Shown in pieces: positions 2,249 to 20,358 of a stretch of 51,202 nucleotides of DNA. Location of the stretch: NCBI GenBank assembly GCA_013390765.1, contig JACAST010000002.1:1-51202 (forward strand), written 5' to 3'. How positions within the stretch are numbered: position 1 is the stretch's first letter; each line of letters opens with the position of its first letter. The DNA comes from Marine Group I thaumarchaeote (lineage in GTDB: Archaea > Thermoproteota > Nitrososphaeria > Nitrososphaerales > Nitrosopumilaceae). The notes beneath the pieces are model-generated. The model was not told where the DNA came from, ran no database searches, and saw only the letters and a program-made list of their open reading frames with translations. Made by a program: the position numbers and the translations under genes.

Positions 2249-3214
2249 ATGAAATACGAAACTATTGGAAAAACAAATACGAAAATTTCAAAAATTAGCC
2301 TTGGATGTATGTCATTTGGTGCAAAATCTGAATGGATGATTGAATCAGATGAAGCGAAACCAATTATAGATTGTGCATTAGATTTAGGAATTACATCTTT
2401 TGATACTGCAAATGCATATTCAAATGGACGTTCTGAAGAAATTTTAGGTGAATTATTGAAGGATTGTCGTGATGACGTTGTAATTGGAAGTAAGGTAAGA
2501 TATCAGATGGGTGATAACCCGAATGATGTTGGCCTTTCAAAAGAACAAATAAACAAACAAATTGAAAAATCATTAGAAAGATTACAAACTAAATTCATAG
2601 ATTTATATCAAATTCATAGATGGGATTACGAAACACCAATTGAAGAAACGTTGGTTGCTTTAGATCAGTTAGTGAAGGATAACAAAGTCAGACATATAGG
2701 CGGCTCAAATATGTGGACAAAGCAACTTGCAGAATCCTTACGGATTAGTAATGAATTAGATTTGCAGCGTTTTGAAACTATGCAGACTTTCTACAATTTA
2801 TGTTACCGTGAAGAAGAGAGAGAAACGCTTCCTTTCTGTAAAGACCAAAACATTTCTACATTGACTTATAATCCAGTAGCAAAGGGATTTTTAACTGGAA
2901 AATATATTCGAAATGAGAAAAATAACAGTATTCGTTTCAAGTCAGATCCAGCATTAGCTGCAAAATTCTTCAAATCTGAGGATTTTGATATTTTAGAAGT
3001 TGTAATACAGATAGCAAATGAGAAAGGTGTAAAACCAGCTCAAATTGCTTTAGCATGGTTACTTGAAAAAAATATCACTTCACCTATTATAGGCGCCACA
3101 AAAACATCACATGTTGAAGAAGCTGTTGATTCATTAAATATCAAACTTACATCTGATGACATTAAACGGTTGGAAGATCCATATCAAGCACAATCAATAC
3201 ATCATCTTGACTAA
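2249..3214 (+). CDS. Aldo/keto reductase
   Basis: A full-length 321-residue NADPH-type aldo/keto reductase. The catalytic tetrad is visible: Asp52 and Tyr57 in FDTANAYSNG, Lys82 in IGSKVRYQMG and His123 in QIHRWDYETP; the C-terminal cofactor segment has PIIGATKTSHVEEAV. It would reduce a carbonyl, probably a sugar or small keto compound in glycan precursor synthesis. It is transcribed divergently from the pyruvate-kinase-like gene 123 bases away. A frameshifted, truncated paralogue lies at 17789-18210, and the last dozen bases before both ATGs (with TGATAATCA) are also conserved, so the promoter-proximal region was duplicated with it. Confidence 0.9.
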   Translation: MKYETIGKTNTKISKISLGCMSFGAKSEWMIESDEAKPIIDCALDLGITSFDTANAYSNGRSEEILGELLKDCRDDVVIGSKVRYQMGDNPNDVGLSKEQINKQIEKSLERLQTKFIDLYQIHRWDYETPIEETLVALDQLVKDNKVRHIGGSNMWTKQLAESLRISNELDLQRFETMQTFYNLCYREEERETLPFCKDQNISTLTYNPVAKGFLTGKYIRNEKNNSIRFKSDPALAAKFFKSEDFDILEVVIQIANEKGVKPAQIALAWLLEKNITSPIIGATKTSHVEEAVDSLNIKLTSDDIKRLEDPYQAQSIHHLD

Positions 3215-3245: not shown

Positions 3246-3902
3246 TCAATATTTTTTTGAATCAACTTCATAGAATTGCTGGTCCTGGTCGTCTTTCCAT
3301 TCCTTCAAGTCAATTATCATATGAATTCTATCAATATTACTTTCATTTCTAACATCATGAACAAGCTGATTATTTATTTCGTAACCATGTCCAGGTTCTA
3401 AATAGTATTCCTTATGATCTAATGTGAATTTAACTGCAGGATCAGATAATATTGGAATGTGGATTCTATGGTTGGTAGTTAACATTGGTCCTGAATCTGA
3501 ATGTTCAGGAATAATTCCACCCTTTTTTAATTCTGTAAACAACACACAAGTTAATTTCAGATTTTCATATCCGTAGAAATTTTTTACTTGAGAAATAATT
3601 TCGTCTAAATATGGTTTAAGTTTGTTCAACAACTCAGTCTCATTTTTTTCATAGTCGATGAATCCTACTCCAGTAGATGCCAAAGATTTGTATTTTAGCA
3701 TCAAAGCACGAACGTCTAAATTCGTCTGGCCAGCTTTTGCTTTTGAATTTCTAGCTTCTGTGTCTTTGTCCCATTCATCGTTAGGAACTGTTTTTAGAAT
3801 ATCTAAGATGCTCTTATAATCACATGTTTTAATTACTTCTCTTAAACCCCCGAATGTCTTGTGAATTACGGCAGGAGATTTTGTTTTTTTCCATCCAAAC
3901 AT
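3246..3902 (-). CDS. Aspartyl/asparaginyl beta-hydroxylase-like Fe(II)/2-oxoglutarate oxygenase
   Basis: A 218-residue cupin-fold protein of the Asp/Asn beta-hydroxylase family, which also includes lipid A hydroxylases. Candidate iron ligands are His134 and Asp136 in PEHSDSGPM and His182 in QLVHDVRNES; Arg192 in DRIHMIIDL is the likely 2-oxoglutarate anchor, and the family-typical NHRIHIPI follows the first His. It has no signal peptide, so it acts in the cytoplasm. In this island a glycan or lipid precursor is a more natural substrate than a protein side chain, but that is inference. It converges on the aldo/keto reductase with 31 bases between stops. Confidence 0.8.
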   Translation of the reverse strand: MFGWKKTKSPAVIHKTFGGLREVIKTCDYKSILDILKTVPNDEWDKDTEARNSKAKAGQTNLDVRALMLKYKSLASTGVGFIDYEKNETELLNKLKPYLDEIISQVKNFYGYENLKLTCVLFTELKKGGIIPEHSDSGPMLTTNHRIHIPILSDPAVKFTLDHKEYYLEPGHGYEINNQLVHDVRNESNIDRIHMIIDLKEWKDDQDQQFYEVDSKKY

Positions 3903-4028: not shown

Positions 4029-4751
4029 ATGAAAGAAACTAGAATTTTTCAAATACAAATTGGTGATAAAGAACAATTAGCGACAAAAAACATAGTCGAA
4101 GGTACTAAAACACATAAAGAAAAAATCGTAATTGTAAACGACGAAGAATTTTTAGAATGGAATCCTTACAAGAGCAAGCTTGCAGCGGCGATTAGAAACG
4201 GCCTTCAAATTCTCCCAATTATTAAAAATTCAAAAGTAGTATGTATTAATCCACTAGAGGAATCAACCATATTGCATATTTCTAATATTGTAGGTAGTAA
4301 AGGATCAGTTTTTGTCATTGATGTCGACAAAAATAAAAAAAGTTTTTTAAACAAGTTAGTGGATACACACAAAAATATAATTCCAATTTATGATACTGTA
4401 GATGAACTATCATTTTCTTCATCAATAACCGGAAAAGTTGATGCGCTTTATGTCGATATTCCAGAATCAGAACAAATAGAAACGATTGTTGAGAAGTATG
4501 GATCACTTCTTAAAAACGAAGGTTTTTTGATGCTTGTAGCAAAAAAAGATGATAATGCAATTATTGAAAATGATATTGCTGGATGGATGGCGGAACAAAG
4601 AGCGGGATTAAATAAAATACGCGAGATAACCACTAAACTCAAATCTCAATTTGAAATAATCCAAGAAATTAATCTTGGCTTAAATTATGGAATGAGACCA
4701 TACCATAAATTCTATGCATTTATTCTTGCACAATATTTACATAAAAATTAA
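4029..4751 (+). CDS. Divergent fibrillarin-like protein with degraded SAM and catalytic motifs
   Basis: Of 240 residues. The family is recognised by LATKNIVEGT, EWNPYKSKLAAAIRNGL, HISNIVGSKGSVFVID, NIIPI and KVDALYVDI, in the order and spacing of archaeal fibrillarin (rRNA 2'-O-methyltransferase of box C/D RNPs). The glycine-rich SAM loop, normally of the GxxxGTT type, is replaced here by NPLEEST at residues 74-80, and the His of the usual KDHAMV segment is Tyr229 in HKFYAFI. Lys50, Asp143 and a Lys near 172 remain. It is therefore probably not a SAM-dependent RNA methyltransferase, and its place between an oxygenase and a sulfotransferase suggests recruitment to another job. Its stop is 7 bases before the sulfotransferase start. 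Confidence 0.8.
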   Translation: MKETRIFQIQIGDKEQLATKNIVEGTKTHKEKIVIVNDEEFLEWNPYKSKLAAAIRNGLQILPIIKNSKVVCINPLEESTILHISNIVGSKGSVFVIDVDKNKKSFLNKLVDTHKNIIPIYDTVDELSFSSSITGKVDALYVDIPESEQIETIVEKYGSLLKNEGFLMLVAKKDDNAIIENDIAGWMAEQRAGLNKIREITTKLKSQFEIIQEINLGLNYGMRPYHKFYAFILAQYLHKN

Positions 4752-4758
4752 TATTTAA

Positions 4759-5748
4759 TTGACTGCTACAAAATTTAAGTTATCGGATGAGACGAAAAGA
4801 TCTTTACCAAGAAGTCTAATTCGTTCATGGTTTATCGAACATCCAGAATTAAATCCTTACAAATTCACTTGGGATAGATTTTCCCGAAAAATAACAAGTA
4901 GCTTTAGGATGTTACCTAGTTTTCTAATACTTGGAGGATCTAGAAGTGGAAATACTTCATTGTTTGCATACTTAACTGAACATCCAAATATTATGCCAGG
5001 TTCCTTGAAGGCATTCTATTTTTTTCAATATTTCACAAATAATAAAACTTCGTTCTATAGATCACAGTTTCCTATAAAGAGAAAAAATCTAATTACATGT
5101 GATTCAACAAGTAGCTATTTTGTTCATCCATTGATACCTGCAAGAGTTCATAAATTATTACCTTCAGCAAAATTAATAGTGATTTTACGTAATCCTGTGG
5201 AAAGAGCTTATTCAGAATTTCATTATACATTAGCTCTTGGCGTAGAACTAACAGAAAATTTTGAAGATGTCATCAAGTCCGAATTAAAAAGAATTGAAAT
5301 TGGAAATAAGAAACCTGAATTAAAGATTGAAACTACCAATTATAATCACTCTGCTTTTTCCCATTTACGAGATGGGCTTTATGTACAGCATCTTGAGAGA
5401 TGGTTAAAATTTTTCCCAAATGAACAATTATTAGTATTACATACTAAGGATCTTTATACTAATTTTGATAATACGTTAGCTAAAACATTTGAATTCCTTA
5501 ATTTACCAAAATATCAGATAGAAAACAGGATAGAAAAAAACAAAATTGATAAAATTCGTCCCTTATCTGGACATGTACGTAATATTTATAAAAATATTGA
5601 TTCAAAAACTCGAACACTATTCAATGTACAGAACTATCCTGAAATAAAATCTGAAACAAGAAAATTTCTTCAAGATTTTTTTAGACCACATAATGAAAAA
5701 CTATTCAAAATGATAGGAAAAAGGTTTGATTGGAATGATGAAAAATAA
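4759..5748 (+). CDS. PAPS-dependent sulfotransferase
   Basis: A 329-residue sulfotransferase of the carbohydrate/lipid type. The 5'-phosphosulfate loop is LILGGSRSGNTSLFAYL at residues 57-71 and the 3'-phosphate motif is IVILRNPVERAYS at 140-152, with Arg144 and Ser152 in the expected places. It transfers sulfate from PAPS to a hydroxyl, here presumably a glycan. The start is a TTG at 4759; an internal ATG at 4909 would cut just before the first motif and is less likely. It probably shares an mRNA with the fibrillarin-like gene upstream. An APS kinase at 14258-14794 could supply its donor. Confidence 0.85.
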   Translation: MTATKFKLSDETKRSLPRSLIRSWFIEHPELNPYKFTWDRFSRKITSSFRMLPSFLILGGSRSGNTSLFAYLTEHPNIMPGSLKAFYFFQYFTNNKTSFYRSQFPIKRKNLITCDSTSSYFVHPLIPARVHKLLPSAKLIVILRNPVERAYSEFHYTLALGVELTENFEDVIKSELKRIEIGNKKPELKIETTNYNHSAFSHLRDGLYVQHLERWLKFFPNEQLLVLHTKDLYTNFDNTLAKTFEFLNLPKYQIENRIEKNKIDKIRPLSGHVRNIYKNIDSKTRTLFNVQNYPEIKSETRKFLQDFFRPHNEKLFKMIGKRFDWNDEK

Positions 5749-7453: not shown

Positions 7454-8383
7454 CTATTCAAATTTAATCCACGTTCTTAAAAAATATCTTTTTCTATTTT
7501 CATCTTCATAGTCCTCAAACTCTGTTCTTCCATGCAAAATCCTATGATTATCAAAAAATGCCATATCGTTTGCTTTTAGATCATAACTGAGAACATTATT
7601 TTTGTTTTTACTTATTTCTTCTAGTGATTGTAGTGCTGTTTCTTGCAATTTAGATAGTGGATAATTTTGAATTTGATGACCTGCAATTATGTAGTTGCTA
7701 AGAAATCTGCAATACAATTTATCGTTCTTAAATACAAAAACAGGTTCGAAAATAGTTTGTGATTCATTAATTTTAAATTCTCCACGTTTATCAAAATGAA
7801 ATTTTTCATAAAGGGTTTTTAGTCCATCATTTTGTTCTTTTAGAAGCTGATTATGAATTGTGTATGCACTGACAAACTTACTAATTCCGCCTTTTTTTGC
7901 CTGGTTAATACATAACATACCTACTAAATCAGGTACCTTTGTCCAATGTGGACTGTCTGTATGATAAGATCCTCCTTCCTTTGTTTGATGATATCTACCA
8001 CCTAATGTCATTGATTTACCTTCGTCTTTGATTTCTACGATTTTTTCAGAGTTAATATTTTGAATATACAATGTTCCTAGTATATTACAAATTATTTCAT
8101 AGATTTTTGTAATTTCATCCTTAGAAAAATCTAAAAAACTTTTTCCATCTATTATTAGTAATCCCACACCCTGAAGTATTTTTTTAGTTTTTAATTCATT
8201 AATTTCATTTTTTAATTCTGGGAAACACGATTCATCAAGATTTGTAAGTTCTTTTCTATCACTTTTTAACTCACTGATAGTTTTAGAAGTCAGTTTCACA
8301 AAAAATTTTTCTGGGTTGTTTTCTAAACTTTTATTCCATACTAGATTTTCATCAGTTATAATTTCTTGTAAAAATCTTGACAT
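7454..8383 (-). CDS. TauD/TfdA-like Fe(II)/2-oxoglutarate dioxygenase
   Basis: A 309-residue protein whose C-terminal two thirds match the TauD/TfdA fold: His141-x-Asp143 in SYHTDSPHW, distal His284 in NHRILHGRTEF and Arg303 in RYFLRTW as likely 2-oxoglutarate ligand. Family members hydroxylate taurine, gamma-butyrobetaine and related small acids, and several act on phosphonates. Between two phosphatase-fold genes and near the phosphonate block, a phosphonate or sugar-precursor substrate is plausible but unproven. It is convergent with the gene at 6001 (13-base gap) and divergent from the one at 8462. A fragment of a paralogue lies at 23492-23645. Confidence 0.8.
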   Translation of the reverse strand: MSRFLQEIITDENLVWNKSLENNPEKFFVKLTSKTISELKSDRKELTNLDESCFPELKNEINELKTKKILQGVGLLIIDGKSFLDFSKDEITKIYEIICNILGTLYIQNINSEKIVEIKDEGKSMTLGGRYHQTKEGGSYHTDSPHWTKVPDLVGMLCINQAKKGGISKFVSAYTIHNQLLKEQNDGLKTLYEKFHFDKRGEFKINESQTIFEPVFVFKNDKLYCRFLSNYIIAGHQIQNYPLSKLQETALQSLEEISKNKNNVLSYDLKANDMAFFDNHRILHGRTEFEDYEDENRKRYFLRTWIKFE

Positions 8384-13826: not shown

Positions 13827-14207
13827 TCATTTTTTTAATGAATCACAAATCTCTTTAATATTTTCTACTGCCCTTGGACTTTCTATTTTTAGTACTATGT
13901 TGATATAATCTGGTAATTTTTCTAGAAATGGCTGTAAATCATTCTTGTTTTCAACGTTTGATACAGCAAAATATGTTATACGTGGATTTGCTTCTATAAT
14001 AGGTATCATATCATCTAACGAATATCTATTATTTGGTGATTTAATTCTTCCAACAGGCAAATCAAGAAAAAATTCCGATTTCTTGTTTTTTGTTAATTTA
14101 CCTTCTAATTCTTCTAAACTGTTACACCATGCTAAATTTATACGAAAAACAACTTCTTTTGGTAATACAAAATCATAACTTTCCATATTTTGTGATATTA
14201 ATAACAT
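13827..14207 (-). pseudogene. 3'-truncated copy of the pyruvate-kinase-like barrel protein
   Basis: A 126-residue frame collinear with the first two thirds of the protein at 1550-2125 (shared RINLAWCNSLEEL, FFLDLP, NIKEIC). It stops after DSLKK, before the equivalent of VMLDHDDLFSSI, so the putative metal loop is missing. The last 17 bases (13827-13843) are identical to the end of the phosphonopyruvate decarboxylase beta gene (18430-18446), which hints at a recombination joint. It may still be translated, as the ATG, the frame and a promoter-like region are intact, but it is unlikely to have the parent's activity. Confidence 0.75.
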
Positions 14208-14257: not shown

Positions 14258-14794
14258 TTAGTTTACAATCAAGTTCTTATTCTTAAGATACAAAAGAAGT
14301 TTGTTAACTGATTCCTCTATGTTCAATTTTTCAGTATCTAAAATTAGATCAGGATTATCTGGAATCTCGTAATCTGTATTAACTCCTATGAAATCCTTAA
14401 TTTCATTTTGTCTGGCTTTTTTGTACATTCCTTTAACATCTCTTTCTTCACAAATAGAAAGTGAGCATTTGATGTATGTTTCAATAAACATGTTATCACC
14501 TATGATTTTATGTGCATCTTCTCTATTTTCATTAAATGGGCTAACAAGAGAAACTAAAACAGGCACGTTATGATTTACTAACAATTTTGCTAGATTAGCA
14601 ACTTTTCTGTTATGTTCGTTTATACCCTTTCTTGAAAAATCCTTAGGTGACAGCCATTCTCTGAGATCATCGCCATCAAGAATTGCAAGATTGTTGACCT
14701 TATCTGAGAGTTTCTTAGCAAGTGTTGTCTTACCAGAACAAGGAAGACCTGTCATCCATAAAACAAAAGCCATACGATTTTTTTTCACATTCAT
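14258..14794 (-). CDS. cysC: Adenylylsulfate (APS) kinase
   Basis: A 178-residue P-loop kinase that phosphorylates APS to PAPS, the donor for sulfotransferases. Walker A is GLPCSGKTT at 16-24; LAILDGDDLREWL, FSRKGINEHNRKVANLAKLL, VSLVSPFNENREDA, ERDVKGMYKKAR and DFIGVNTDYEIPDNPDL are the usual APS-kinase landmarks. It is a stand-alone kinase without an ATP-sulfurylase domain. The start could be Met1 or Met8 (MAFVLWMTG). It is 12 bases downstream of the dehydrogenase gene, so both are probably co-transcribed, tying sulfate activation to the phosphonate genes. The likely user is the sulfotransferase at 4759-5748. Confidence 0.9.
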   Translation of the reverse strand: MNVKKNRMAFVLWMTGLPCSGKTTLAKKLSDKVNNLAILDGDDLREWLSPKDFSRKGINEHNRKVANLAKLLVNHNVPVLVSLVSPFNENREDAHKIIGDNMFIETYIKCSLSICEERDVKGMYKKARQNEIKDFIGVNTDYEIPDNPDLILDTEKLNIEESVNKLLLYLKNKNLIVN

Positions 14795-17788: not shown

Positions 17789-18210
17789 ATGAAATATGAA
17801 AGTATTGGGAGAACGAATACAAAAATCTCAAAAATTAGTCTTGGATGTATGTCATTTGGTGCGAAGTCTGAATGGATGATTGAATTAGATGATGCAAAAC
17901 CAATTATTGATTGTGCATTAGATTTAGGAATAACATTTTTTGATACTGCAAACGCATATTCAAATGGACGTTCAGAAGAAATTCTAGGCAATTTGTTAAA
18001 AGACTGTCGTAATGATGTTATAATTAGCACTAAAGTCAGATATCAAATGGGCAATAACCCAAATGATGTAGGTCTCTCACAAGAACAAATAAACAAACAA
18101 ATTGATAAATCATTGGAAAGATTACAAACTAAATTCATAGATGGGATTATGAAACACCAATTAAAGAAACACTGATTGCTTTAGATCAGTTAGTGAAAGA
18201 TAAAAAAGTT
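17789..18210 (+). pseudogene. Frameshifted, truncated aldo/keto reductase copy
   Basis: It matches the reductase at 2249-3214 from its ATG, including the preceding TGATAATCA. Asp52, Tyr57 and Lys82 equivalents are present. At 18131-18142 a 19-base unit is missing relative to the parent, exactly one copy of a direct-repeat interval (AAATTCATAGAT occurs twice in the parent, at 2591 and 2610), removing the HRW catalytic-His region from frame; translation then ends at TGA/TAA after HQLKKH (18175). Homology continues out of frame as TTGCTTTAGATCAGTTAGTG to about 18210, where it abuts an inverted two-TM fragment. Confidence 0.85.
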
Positions 18211-18365: not shown

Positions 18366-18431
18366 CTATTTTTTACGCACGTATATCAATATCACTACAT
18401 ATCCTGCTAACACTATAGCTTTTACACTATC
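18366..18431 (-). other. Possible C-terminal relic of an unknown membrane protein
   Basis: The minus-strand frame DSVKAIVLAGYVVILIYVRKK ends at TAG 18366-18368 and looks like a membrane helix with a basic tail. There is no start or upstream coding region, since the decarboxylase beta gene ends at 18430. It is short enough to be coincidence. Confidence 0.25.
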
Positions 18432-18984
18432 ATTTTTTTAATGAATTAATAAATCTATTTTTAATTTTAGTTGGTTCCATGTTTATTCGTTTACTGATAA
18501 CTCCGCCTTTTTCAATTTTAACAATTAACATGATTGGACCTGGAATTAATTTTATTTTTTGAAAAATCTTTGTGAGTTGATTTTTTGTTTTTACCTGAAA
18601 AACCTTGTAATTTGCTGATTTAGCAATTTTACTTAATTGAATTTTATTTGTTGCTGTAGGCTGTCCACCTGTTGATTCATGACTACTATTATCAAAAATT
18701 ACATGAACAAGATTTTTTGGTTTTATTATTCCTATAGTAATCAATGAACCTAGATTCATCAAAATATTTCCATCTCCATCAAATACAAAAATTTTCTTTT
18801 TTGTACTTTTTAATGCAACTCCTAAACCAATTGAGGATGCTAATCCCATTGAGCCAATCATATAGAAATTTGAATTTCTATCACAAGTGTCAAAAAGATC
18901 TCTACTGATGAAACCATTTGCAGAAATTATAGGCTGGTTACTCATTTTTTCAACTATAATGCTAATCGCTTCTTTTCTAATCAA
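18430..18984 (-). CDS. Phosphonopyruvate decarboxylase, TPP-binding (beta) subunit
   Basis: A 184-residue protein equal to the C-terminal half of thiamine-diphosphate decarboxylases. The TPP/metal motif is FDGDGNILMNLG near residues 69-79, with Asn99 completing it, and SHESTGGQPT (101-110) is the segment characteristic of phosphonopyruvate decarboxylase. With the alpha subunit it converts phosphonopyruvate to phosphonoacetaldehyde, pulling the unfavourable PEP mutase equilibrium forward. Start and alpha stop overlap by 8 bases. The last 17 bases are identical to the end of the truncated barrel gene at 13827. Confidence 0.9.
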   Translation of the reverse strand: MIRKEAISIIVEKMSNQPIISANGFISRDLFDTCDRNSNFYMIGSMGLASSIGLGVALKSTKKKIFVFDGDGNILMNLGSLITIGIIKPKNLVHVIFDNSSHESTGGQPTATNKIQLSKIAKSANYKVFQVKTKNQLTKIFQKIKLIPGPIMLIVKIEKGGVISKRINMEPTKIKNRFINSLKK

Positions 18985-19465
18985 TAAAATCTCTTTTCAA
19001 AATTAATGCGCATGGTTTTTTCTCTTTGATCAATTTTAAAGCCCAATCACAAGATGCCTTCCAATTTTTTTCATTTATAATTTTAGATTGTAAGGAAAGT
19101 GCCTGAAGCAACTTTGGTTGAATCTTTCCAATTTTAGTATGTTCAGGTGCATCATTTTTTAGGAAACCTCTCCAGCCTATCAAAAAAATCATTGGTATTT
19201 TGTATAATTGAACAAGAGATGTAATTGTGCTTAAAGAATTAGCAAAACCTGCATTTTGCATAAATACTAAAGAACTGCTTTGAGACAATGTCATTCCAAC
19301 AGCAATTCCAATAGCTTCATCTTCTCTAGTAGTAATAAGAATTTTATTTTTTTTAAACCCTTGATCGATAAAATGTTTCATTGTTGAATCAGGTACTCCA
19401 ATAAAATTTTCAGTTCCATTATTAAATAAATAATCAAAAACTTGTTTTTGTGTTAATTCTTTCAA
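18977..19465 (-). CDS. Phosphonopyruvate decarboxylase, alpha (pyrimidine-binding) subunit
   Basis: A 162-residue protein equal to the N-terminal half of phosphonopyruvate decarboxylase: FIGVPDSTMKHFID, then the catalytic-Glu region TTREDEAIGIAVGMTL (Glu48 the probable activator of TPP), MQNAGFANSLSTITSL and IGWRG. The enzyme is split in two genes here, as in some other phosphonate clusters. It overlaps the PEP mutase stop by 4 bases and the beta subunit start by 8, giving a tight three-gene operon, pepM-alpha-beta. Confidence 0.9.
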   Translation of the reverse strand: MKELTQKQVFDYLFNNGTENFIGVPDSTMKHFIDQGFKKNKILITTREDEAIGIAVGMTLSQSSSLVFMQNAGFANSLSTITSLVQLYKIPMIFLIGWRGFLKNDAPEHTKIGKIQPKLLQALSLQSKIINEKNWKASCDWALKLIKEKKPCALILKRDFID

Positions 19466-20358
19466 GAGACATAGCCTAATTTTCGTAGTTTTTCCTCAAT
19501 ACTTTTTTCTTGTGATTTCATATCATGCATCTCTTGTAATTTAAAAATATCCTCCATTGATGACATTTGATTTTGTAATTGAGACATATTATTAGCATTC
19601 TTCATTTGTTTAAGTAATTTTGACAGTGCAAAATGTGCTGCACGTAATGTTTGATTAGCATAAATAACCATTTTTATTTTGTGTTCTATTAATTCATCAA
19701 CATTTACAGAATAATATGTGGTGGGAATCACTACTAATGGGGCACTACCCTTCCATGAATCAGAAAATTCAAAAATTTCTTCTGGGGTAATTTTTTTAGA
19801 ATGAATTAAAATTAGATCAGCACCTGCTTTTTCATAGGCATATGCTCTTTTAAGGGCCTGTTCTATGCCTATCCCAGAAATCAAAGCTTCAATTCGGGCA
19901 ATTATAGTAAATGCCTTATTTTGTTTTGCCTCATTAGCAGCTAATATTTTAGCGGCAAAATCTTTTTCAGATAATAATTGGTTATTACCACCTTCTAACA
20001 AACTATTTTGTTTTGGAAATGTTTTATCTTCAATACAAATACCAGCGATTCCTGCATTTTCATATTTTTTAACCATATATCTAACATTAGTTGCATCACC
20101 ATAACCAGTATCACAATCTGCGATAACAGGTATTTCACAAGCATTCGCCATGTTTGACGCAGCAGTAAAAAATTCTGTCATTGTTAAAATGCTTGCATCA
20201 GGAACGTTATTGATCGCTGAAATTGCAAAACTTCCAGCCCATACTGCATCGAATCCAGATAATTCAACTAATTTAGCAGACATTGCATCATATGCACCAC
20301 AAACTTTGACAATAGGTTGATTATCTAATAACTTAACAAGATTTTCCGACTGGCTCAT
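19462..20358 (-). CDS. pepM: Phosphoenolpyruvate mutase
   Basis: A 298-residue isocitrate-lyase-superfamily enzyme that rearranges PEP to phosphonopyruvate, forming the C-P bond. The diagnostic motif EDK-x5-NS is intact as EDKTFPKQNS at 110-119, which separates mutases from lyases; metal residues Asp81 and Asp83 are in IADCDTGYGDATN, and the N-terminal GAYDAMSAKL and AGSFAISA are typical. This is the committing step of phosphonate synthesis. It leads an operon with the split decarboxylase. A TATA-like box 22-31 bases upstream supports the ATG at 20358. Confidence 0.95.
   Translation of the reverse strand: MSQSENLVKLLDNQPIVKVCGAYDAMSAKLVELSGFDAVWAGSFAISAINNVPDASILTMTEFFTAASNMANACEIPVIADCDTGYGDATNVRYMVKKYENAGIAGICIEDKTFPKQNSLLEGGNNQLLSEKDFAAKILAANEAKQNKAFTIIARIEALISGIGIEQALKRAYAYEKAGADLILIHSKKITPEEIFEFSDSWKGSAPLVVIPTTYYSVNVDELIEHKIKMVIYANQTLRAAHFALSKLLKQMKNANNMSQLQNQMSSMEDIFKLQEMHDMKSQEKSIEEKLRKLGYVS

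Follow-up and report, generated by a model that had tools for sequence, protein, structure and literature searches.

A fibrillarin paralogue with a rewritten SAM loop, paired with a loop-altered sulfotransferase in a glycan island of a Marine Group I thaumarchaeote

The window analysed here is a stretch of 51,202 nucleotides from a Marine Group I thaumarchaeote (GenBank assembly GCA_013390765.1, contig JACAST010000002.1, positions 1 to 51,202 of the forward strand). It holds an island of genes for glycosyltransferases, sugar epimerases, an APS kinase, a WbqC-like protein and sulfatase-fold enzymes, within which a gene of the fibrillarin family stands directly beside a sulfotransferase gene. 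The features concerned are as follows.

4029..4751, plus strand: fibrillarin paralogue of 240 aa, from ATG at 4029 to TAA at 4751 (PF01269 121 bits; fold match; paralogue profile)
4176..4178, plus strand: K50, first residue of the catalytic triad, kept (alignment; PMC12510318)
4248..4268, plus strand: rewritten SAM loop, residues 74-80, NPLEEST for canonical GVSTGTT (alignment, 73 canonical sequences)
4455..4457, plus strand: D143, second triad residue, kept (alignment; PMC12510318)
4542..4544, plus strand: K172, third triad residue, kept, followed by an insert that replaces RSIDVTKEP (alignment; PMC12510318)
4713..4715, plus strand: Y229 in place of the canonical KDHAM His, H214 (alignment)
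4759..5748, plus strand: partner sulfotransferase of 329 aa, 7 bases past the fibrillarin stop (PF00685 52 bits; orthologous pairings L037/L126 and L038/L127)
4939..4959, plus strand: altered PAPS 5'-phosphosulfate loop of the sulfotransferase, SRSGNTS (26/26 informative unpaired relatives keep [GA][TS][TS])
14258..14794, minus strand: APS kinase, for PAPS supply inside the glycan island (PF01583 145 bits)

By profile and fold matching, the product of 4029-4751 is a PF01269 homologue. The Pfam profile matches it at 121 bits (E 5e-35, cut-off 27), solved archaeal fibrillarins match it at E 9e-27 to 6e-12, and the 37 best PDB matches of its AlphaFold model, which is of low confidence (mean pLDDT 60), are all fibrillarin structures. 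It resembles archaeal fibrillarin over its full length in sequence, as the preliminary description had proposed, and in predicted fold, and retains the K-D-K triad, but it has lost the SAM loop, exchanges the His for Tyr, carries an insert before the C-terminal strands, adjoins a sulfotransferase instead of Nop5, and lies under all NCBIfam equivalog cut-offs (121 versus 339 bits, and 99.5 versus 113). Judged by SAM loop and Nop5 gene cluster, the protein does not qualify as a fibrillarin 2'-O-methyltransferase.

Alignment with 73 distinct canonical fibrillarin sequences locates the divergence. The N-terminal part retains 12 of its 15 conserved positions, the region around motif I retains 6 of 16 and the segment after it 4 of 15, and canonical G75, S77, T78, G79 and T80 have become N, L, E, E and S. 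Both the loop replacement and the loss of the KDHAM His, read by eye in the preliminary description, were borne out; its further statement that the protein lacks cofactor motifs holds for the SAM loop and is otherwise too strong, because the acidic ribose-contact position (canonical E) is D98. Plant fibrillarin AtFib2 needs the triad K138/D231/K260 (PMC12510318), matched here by alignment and spacing to K50/D143/K172. With D98 and the full triad kept, what the window copy has lost is the cofactor loop and not the catalytic residues.

The variant occurs in 3 of 250 genomes of the family, the others being Marine Group I AC-665-F20 (F20; genome G010, contig JACASX010000006.1) and Candidatus Nitrosopelagicus AH-558-A20 (A20; genome G004, contig JAOMEP010000005.1), and there, as in the window, it adjoins a sulfotransferase that is divergent. 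All three pass the PF01269 cut-off (window 121, F20 45, A20 32.5 bits). A profile built from them scores the variants at 295-324 bits (window 298) and the best canonical copy among 400 genomes of the order at 139, and no further copy of the paralogue was found with it in the 250 family or 400 order genomes. Phylogenetically the three cluster together, nested among the canonical copies of Nitrosopumilaceae (92/94), on very long branches, and the exact source of the paralogue is therefore unsure. Searches of GTDB contigs with the window protein as sole query gave no close relative, and the paralogue profile recovers F20 and A20; IMG/VR yielded no close relatives of the window protein or of canonical thaumarchaeal fibrillarin, nor any with the paralogue and sulfotransferase profiles. 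The sole match among phages is a protein of Methanothermobacter phage psiM100, 24.7% identical and annotated as fibrillarin-like. Literature searches found no paper linking fibrillarin, sulfotransferase and Thaumarchaeota, or Nitrosopelagicus and sulfotransferase. The canonical GxSxGTT loop is absent from all three variants, which read NPLEEST (window), GTLDDDI (F20) and GKIDKKE (A20); in F20 and A20 the D98 position is N and most pocket residues are also gone. The triad declines from three residues in the window copy to two in F20 (K to T) and none in A20, which argues that catalysis is not selected across the group, and the variant fibrillarin is probably SAM-less.

Pairing with the sulfotransferase is tight in every case. 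In the window the fibrillarin precedes the sulfotransferase with a gap of 7 bases; in F20 the sulfotransferase comes first with a gap of 3 bases, and A20 has the F20 order with a 7-base overlap. That adjacency survives the change of order points to a functional link, and the two genes are presumably co-transcribed. The three paired sulfotransferases form one clade (99/96) with a relative, L070 of genome G018, whose contig ends 96 bases downstream of the sulfotransferase gene, with no fibrillarin start within those 96 bases. The three islands are alike apart from the pair: between window and F20 the sulfotransferases are 35% and the fibrillarins 25% identical, against about 45-89% for the other neighbours common to the window, F20 and A20 islands. 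The paralogues also have in common the C-terminal sequence IQE[IL]N[IL], and F20 and A20 share YFRNKSL. Paralogy and repurposing beside a sulfotransferase, as first suggested, are thus supported, since the pairing recurs in two further genomes and one of these, F20, which belongs to the same genus group, carries a canonical Nop5-linked fibrillarin in addition to the second, fibrillarin-like gene. Nothing points to the RNA-binding or gene-regulatory role, also envisaged, rather than to one involving the sulfotransferase. The preliminary description had noticed neither the retained triad nor the changed PAPS loop of the partner.

The partner is itself specialised, in a feature newly recognised here. 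All 26 informative relatives that are unpaired have GTT, GTS or AST in the PAPS 5'-phosphosulfate loop, whereas the three fibrillarin-paired sulfotransferases have GNT, GKH and GKY; altered loops occur in these three only. The chance that random placement would put the loop change exactly in the paired members is 1 in 3654. Because F20 and A20 are sisters, the loop changes amount to about two independent events at most. Like PAPS-dependent carbohydrate sulfotransferases (PF00685), the paired enzymes have the basic residue of the 5'-loop, equivalent to Lys614 in NDST1 (PMC3733922), and the 3'-phosphate motif RNPxxRAxS (RNPVERAYS, RNPIDRAYS and RNPVNRAYS, that is RNPxxRAYS); they depart from the [KR]xGT[TS] loop pattern in the replacement of GTT, a change confined to paired members. 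With basic residue and 3'-phosphate motif kept, the loop is altered, not dead, and on these motifs the sulfotransferase may still be active as an enzyme. A structure model of the sulfotransferase (pLDDT 49) was too poor for use.

Reading frames of the pair are preserved by selection. When neutral substitution was simulated at the F20/A20 distances, none of 5000 copies stayed free of stops, the expectation being 10-14. The residues of the fibrillarin are under weak constraint: the F20 and A20 proteins are 44% identical (NG86 dN 0.45, dS 0.76, dN/dS about 0.58), and the sulfotransferases 68% identical (dN 0.21, dS 1.37), values that are near saturation and rough. The fibrillarins thus evolve fast, and constraint on them is modest.

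We propose that the variant is a neofunctionalised, non-methylating fibrillarin that acts as a protein partner of the adjacent specialised sulfotransferase in surface-glycan modification, a reading to which we give an even chance. In outline, the fibrillarin of Nitrosopelagicus would have been duplicated and one copy would have left RNA modification; this duplicate would have lost its SAM-binding loop and become a non-methylating protein; the SAM-less copy would act on the sulfotransferase beside it as a stabiliser, activator or acceptor-presenting subunit, presumably in physical contact; and the pair would modify a surface glycan that the hypervariable island encodes. Inactive methyltransferase relatives that serve as activating partners are known, METTL14 among them (PMC10908127), and the variant is like METTL14 and DNMT3L in its methyltransferase fold, its degraded cofactor site and its likely partner-regulating role. 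It differs from METTL14 and DNMT3L, which regulate a methyltransferase of their own family (PMC10908127), in its origin from fibrillarin and in having a sulfotransferase as its presumed partner. Several facts count against the partner reading: genes within a shuffled island may be neighbours through co-transfer, the complete triad of the window copy is what an active methyltransferase would have, and the F20 and A20 fibrillarins evolve fast. Known pairs also number three, with few independent loop changes.

A stronger form of the partner reading, which we advance tentatively and would sooner expect to fail than to hold, makes the variant a pseudo-methyltransferase in an obligate complex with the loop-altered sulfotransferase, the two remodelled cofactor sites together forming a new unit for modifying the surface glycan, and the first fibrillarin to leave RNA biology. 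Loss of the SAM loop in a gene adjoining a sulfotransferase with an altered loop does suggest an essential RNA enzyme recycled for the sugar coat of the cell. If true, a SAM-loop-less duplicate linked with a sulfotransferase would clearly exemplify the recruitment of such an enzyme into cell-surface chemistry, and would add to the little-known surface-glycan chemistry of the abundant ammonia-oxidising archaea of the open ocean.

Rather than a protein partner, the fibrillarin might be a donor carrier or PAP remover for the sulfotransferase, its pocket rewritten for a different nucleotide such as PAPS, PAP or a nucleotide sugar. In favour of this, SAM and PAPS each contain adenosine, the partner has a modified PAPS loop, acidic D98 and D143 remain in the window copy and an APS kinase is encoded in the island; we nonetheless think it unlikely, given the N at the D98 position and the loss of most pocket residues in F20 and A20, and no known nucleotide-site motif has been gained. 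It is likewise improbable that the protein is a SAM-dependent methyltransferase still, with an unusual loop, methylating the glycan or the sulfotransferase: both conserved SAM-loop glycines have disappeared, as has the D125 position, and A20 is without the entire triad, set against the K50-D143-K172 of the window copy, the same triad that plant fibrillarin needs (PMC12510318). That the gene is a decaying, functionless duplicate carried in the island would account for how fast the F20 and A20 copies have evolved and for their lost catalytic residues, and strikes us as quite improbable, for frames are intact in three divergent genomes where neutrality predicts 10-14 stops, the pairing is conserved through an inversion of order, and C-terminal sequence is shared.

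There remains the matter of whether the gene is the only fibrillarin of its genome. Across Archaea, fibrillarin is described as a single-copy gene, with duplicates in 3 of 148 archaeal species, all Euryarchaeota (PMC7608942). In relatives the canonical gene lies between Nop5 and RNase HII, one or both of which were found at 106 of the 110 fetched fibrillarin loci above 60 bits (several being overlapping fetches of one gene), the other four being the window locus itself. The window genome assembly (884 kb, 85 contigs) is 63% complete, and neither a second fibrillarin above the cut-off nor Nop5 nor RNase HII was found in it. The preliminary description would have taken such a lack as evidence against paralogy; it is uninformative, because the whole cluster is absent from an assembly of this completeness, and the canonical Nop5-fibrillarin-RNase HII cluster most likely lies in the missing part of the genome. 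That the window gene is the organism's sole fibrillarin, diverged and still working with Nop5 on rRNA, as its lack of a rival in the assembly would allow, is hardly credible when Nop5 and RNase HII are missing from the assembly as well, all 106 canonical loci outside the window adjoin one or other of these genes, and F20 has both copies.

Another fibrillarin-like match in the window genome, on contig C34, was read from its sequence as a probable methyltransferase of the tRNA m1A58 type and set aside. Where other genomes gave a second match, it was due to a split gene, to an assembly in which contamination is about 5%, or to a weak hit. Two genomes have the canonical fibrillarin in two frames, L138/L140 in G211 and L137/L141 in G259, probably through sequencing or assembly errors.

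Elsewhere in the island there are phosphonate genes, namely a PEP mutase, a split TPP decarboxylase and an Fe-alcohol dehydrogenase; PEP mutase and the N- and C-terminal parts of the decarboxylase, as two genes, form a phosphonate biosynthesis set at 18430-20358, and A20 has such a set within about 5 kb of its sulfotransferase-fibrillarin pair. It can fairly be inferred, rather than counted as a result, that the island glycan is a sulfated, phosphonate-bearing surface glycan. Neither of the two sulfatase-fold proteins (PF00884; 6001-7440 and 8462-9586) has the C/S-x-P-x-R formylglycine motif, which makes it unlikely that they are ordinary sulfatases; their nucleophile may be a Thr, as it is in relatives that transfer phospho groups. 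An aspartyl/asparaginyl hydroxylase-like gene (3246-3902) and a TauD-like oxygenase gene (7454-8383), both on the strand opposite to the pair, lie close to it. An HpcH-like gene is present twice, one copy shorter (1550-2125 and 13827-14207), and its A20 homologue, 74% identical, directly adjoins the sulfotransferase-fibrillarin pair there. Aldo/keto reductase is represented by a full copy (2249-3214) and a very similar truncated one (17789-18175), the latter suggesting recent duplication or recombination in the island.
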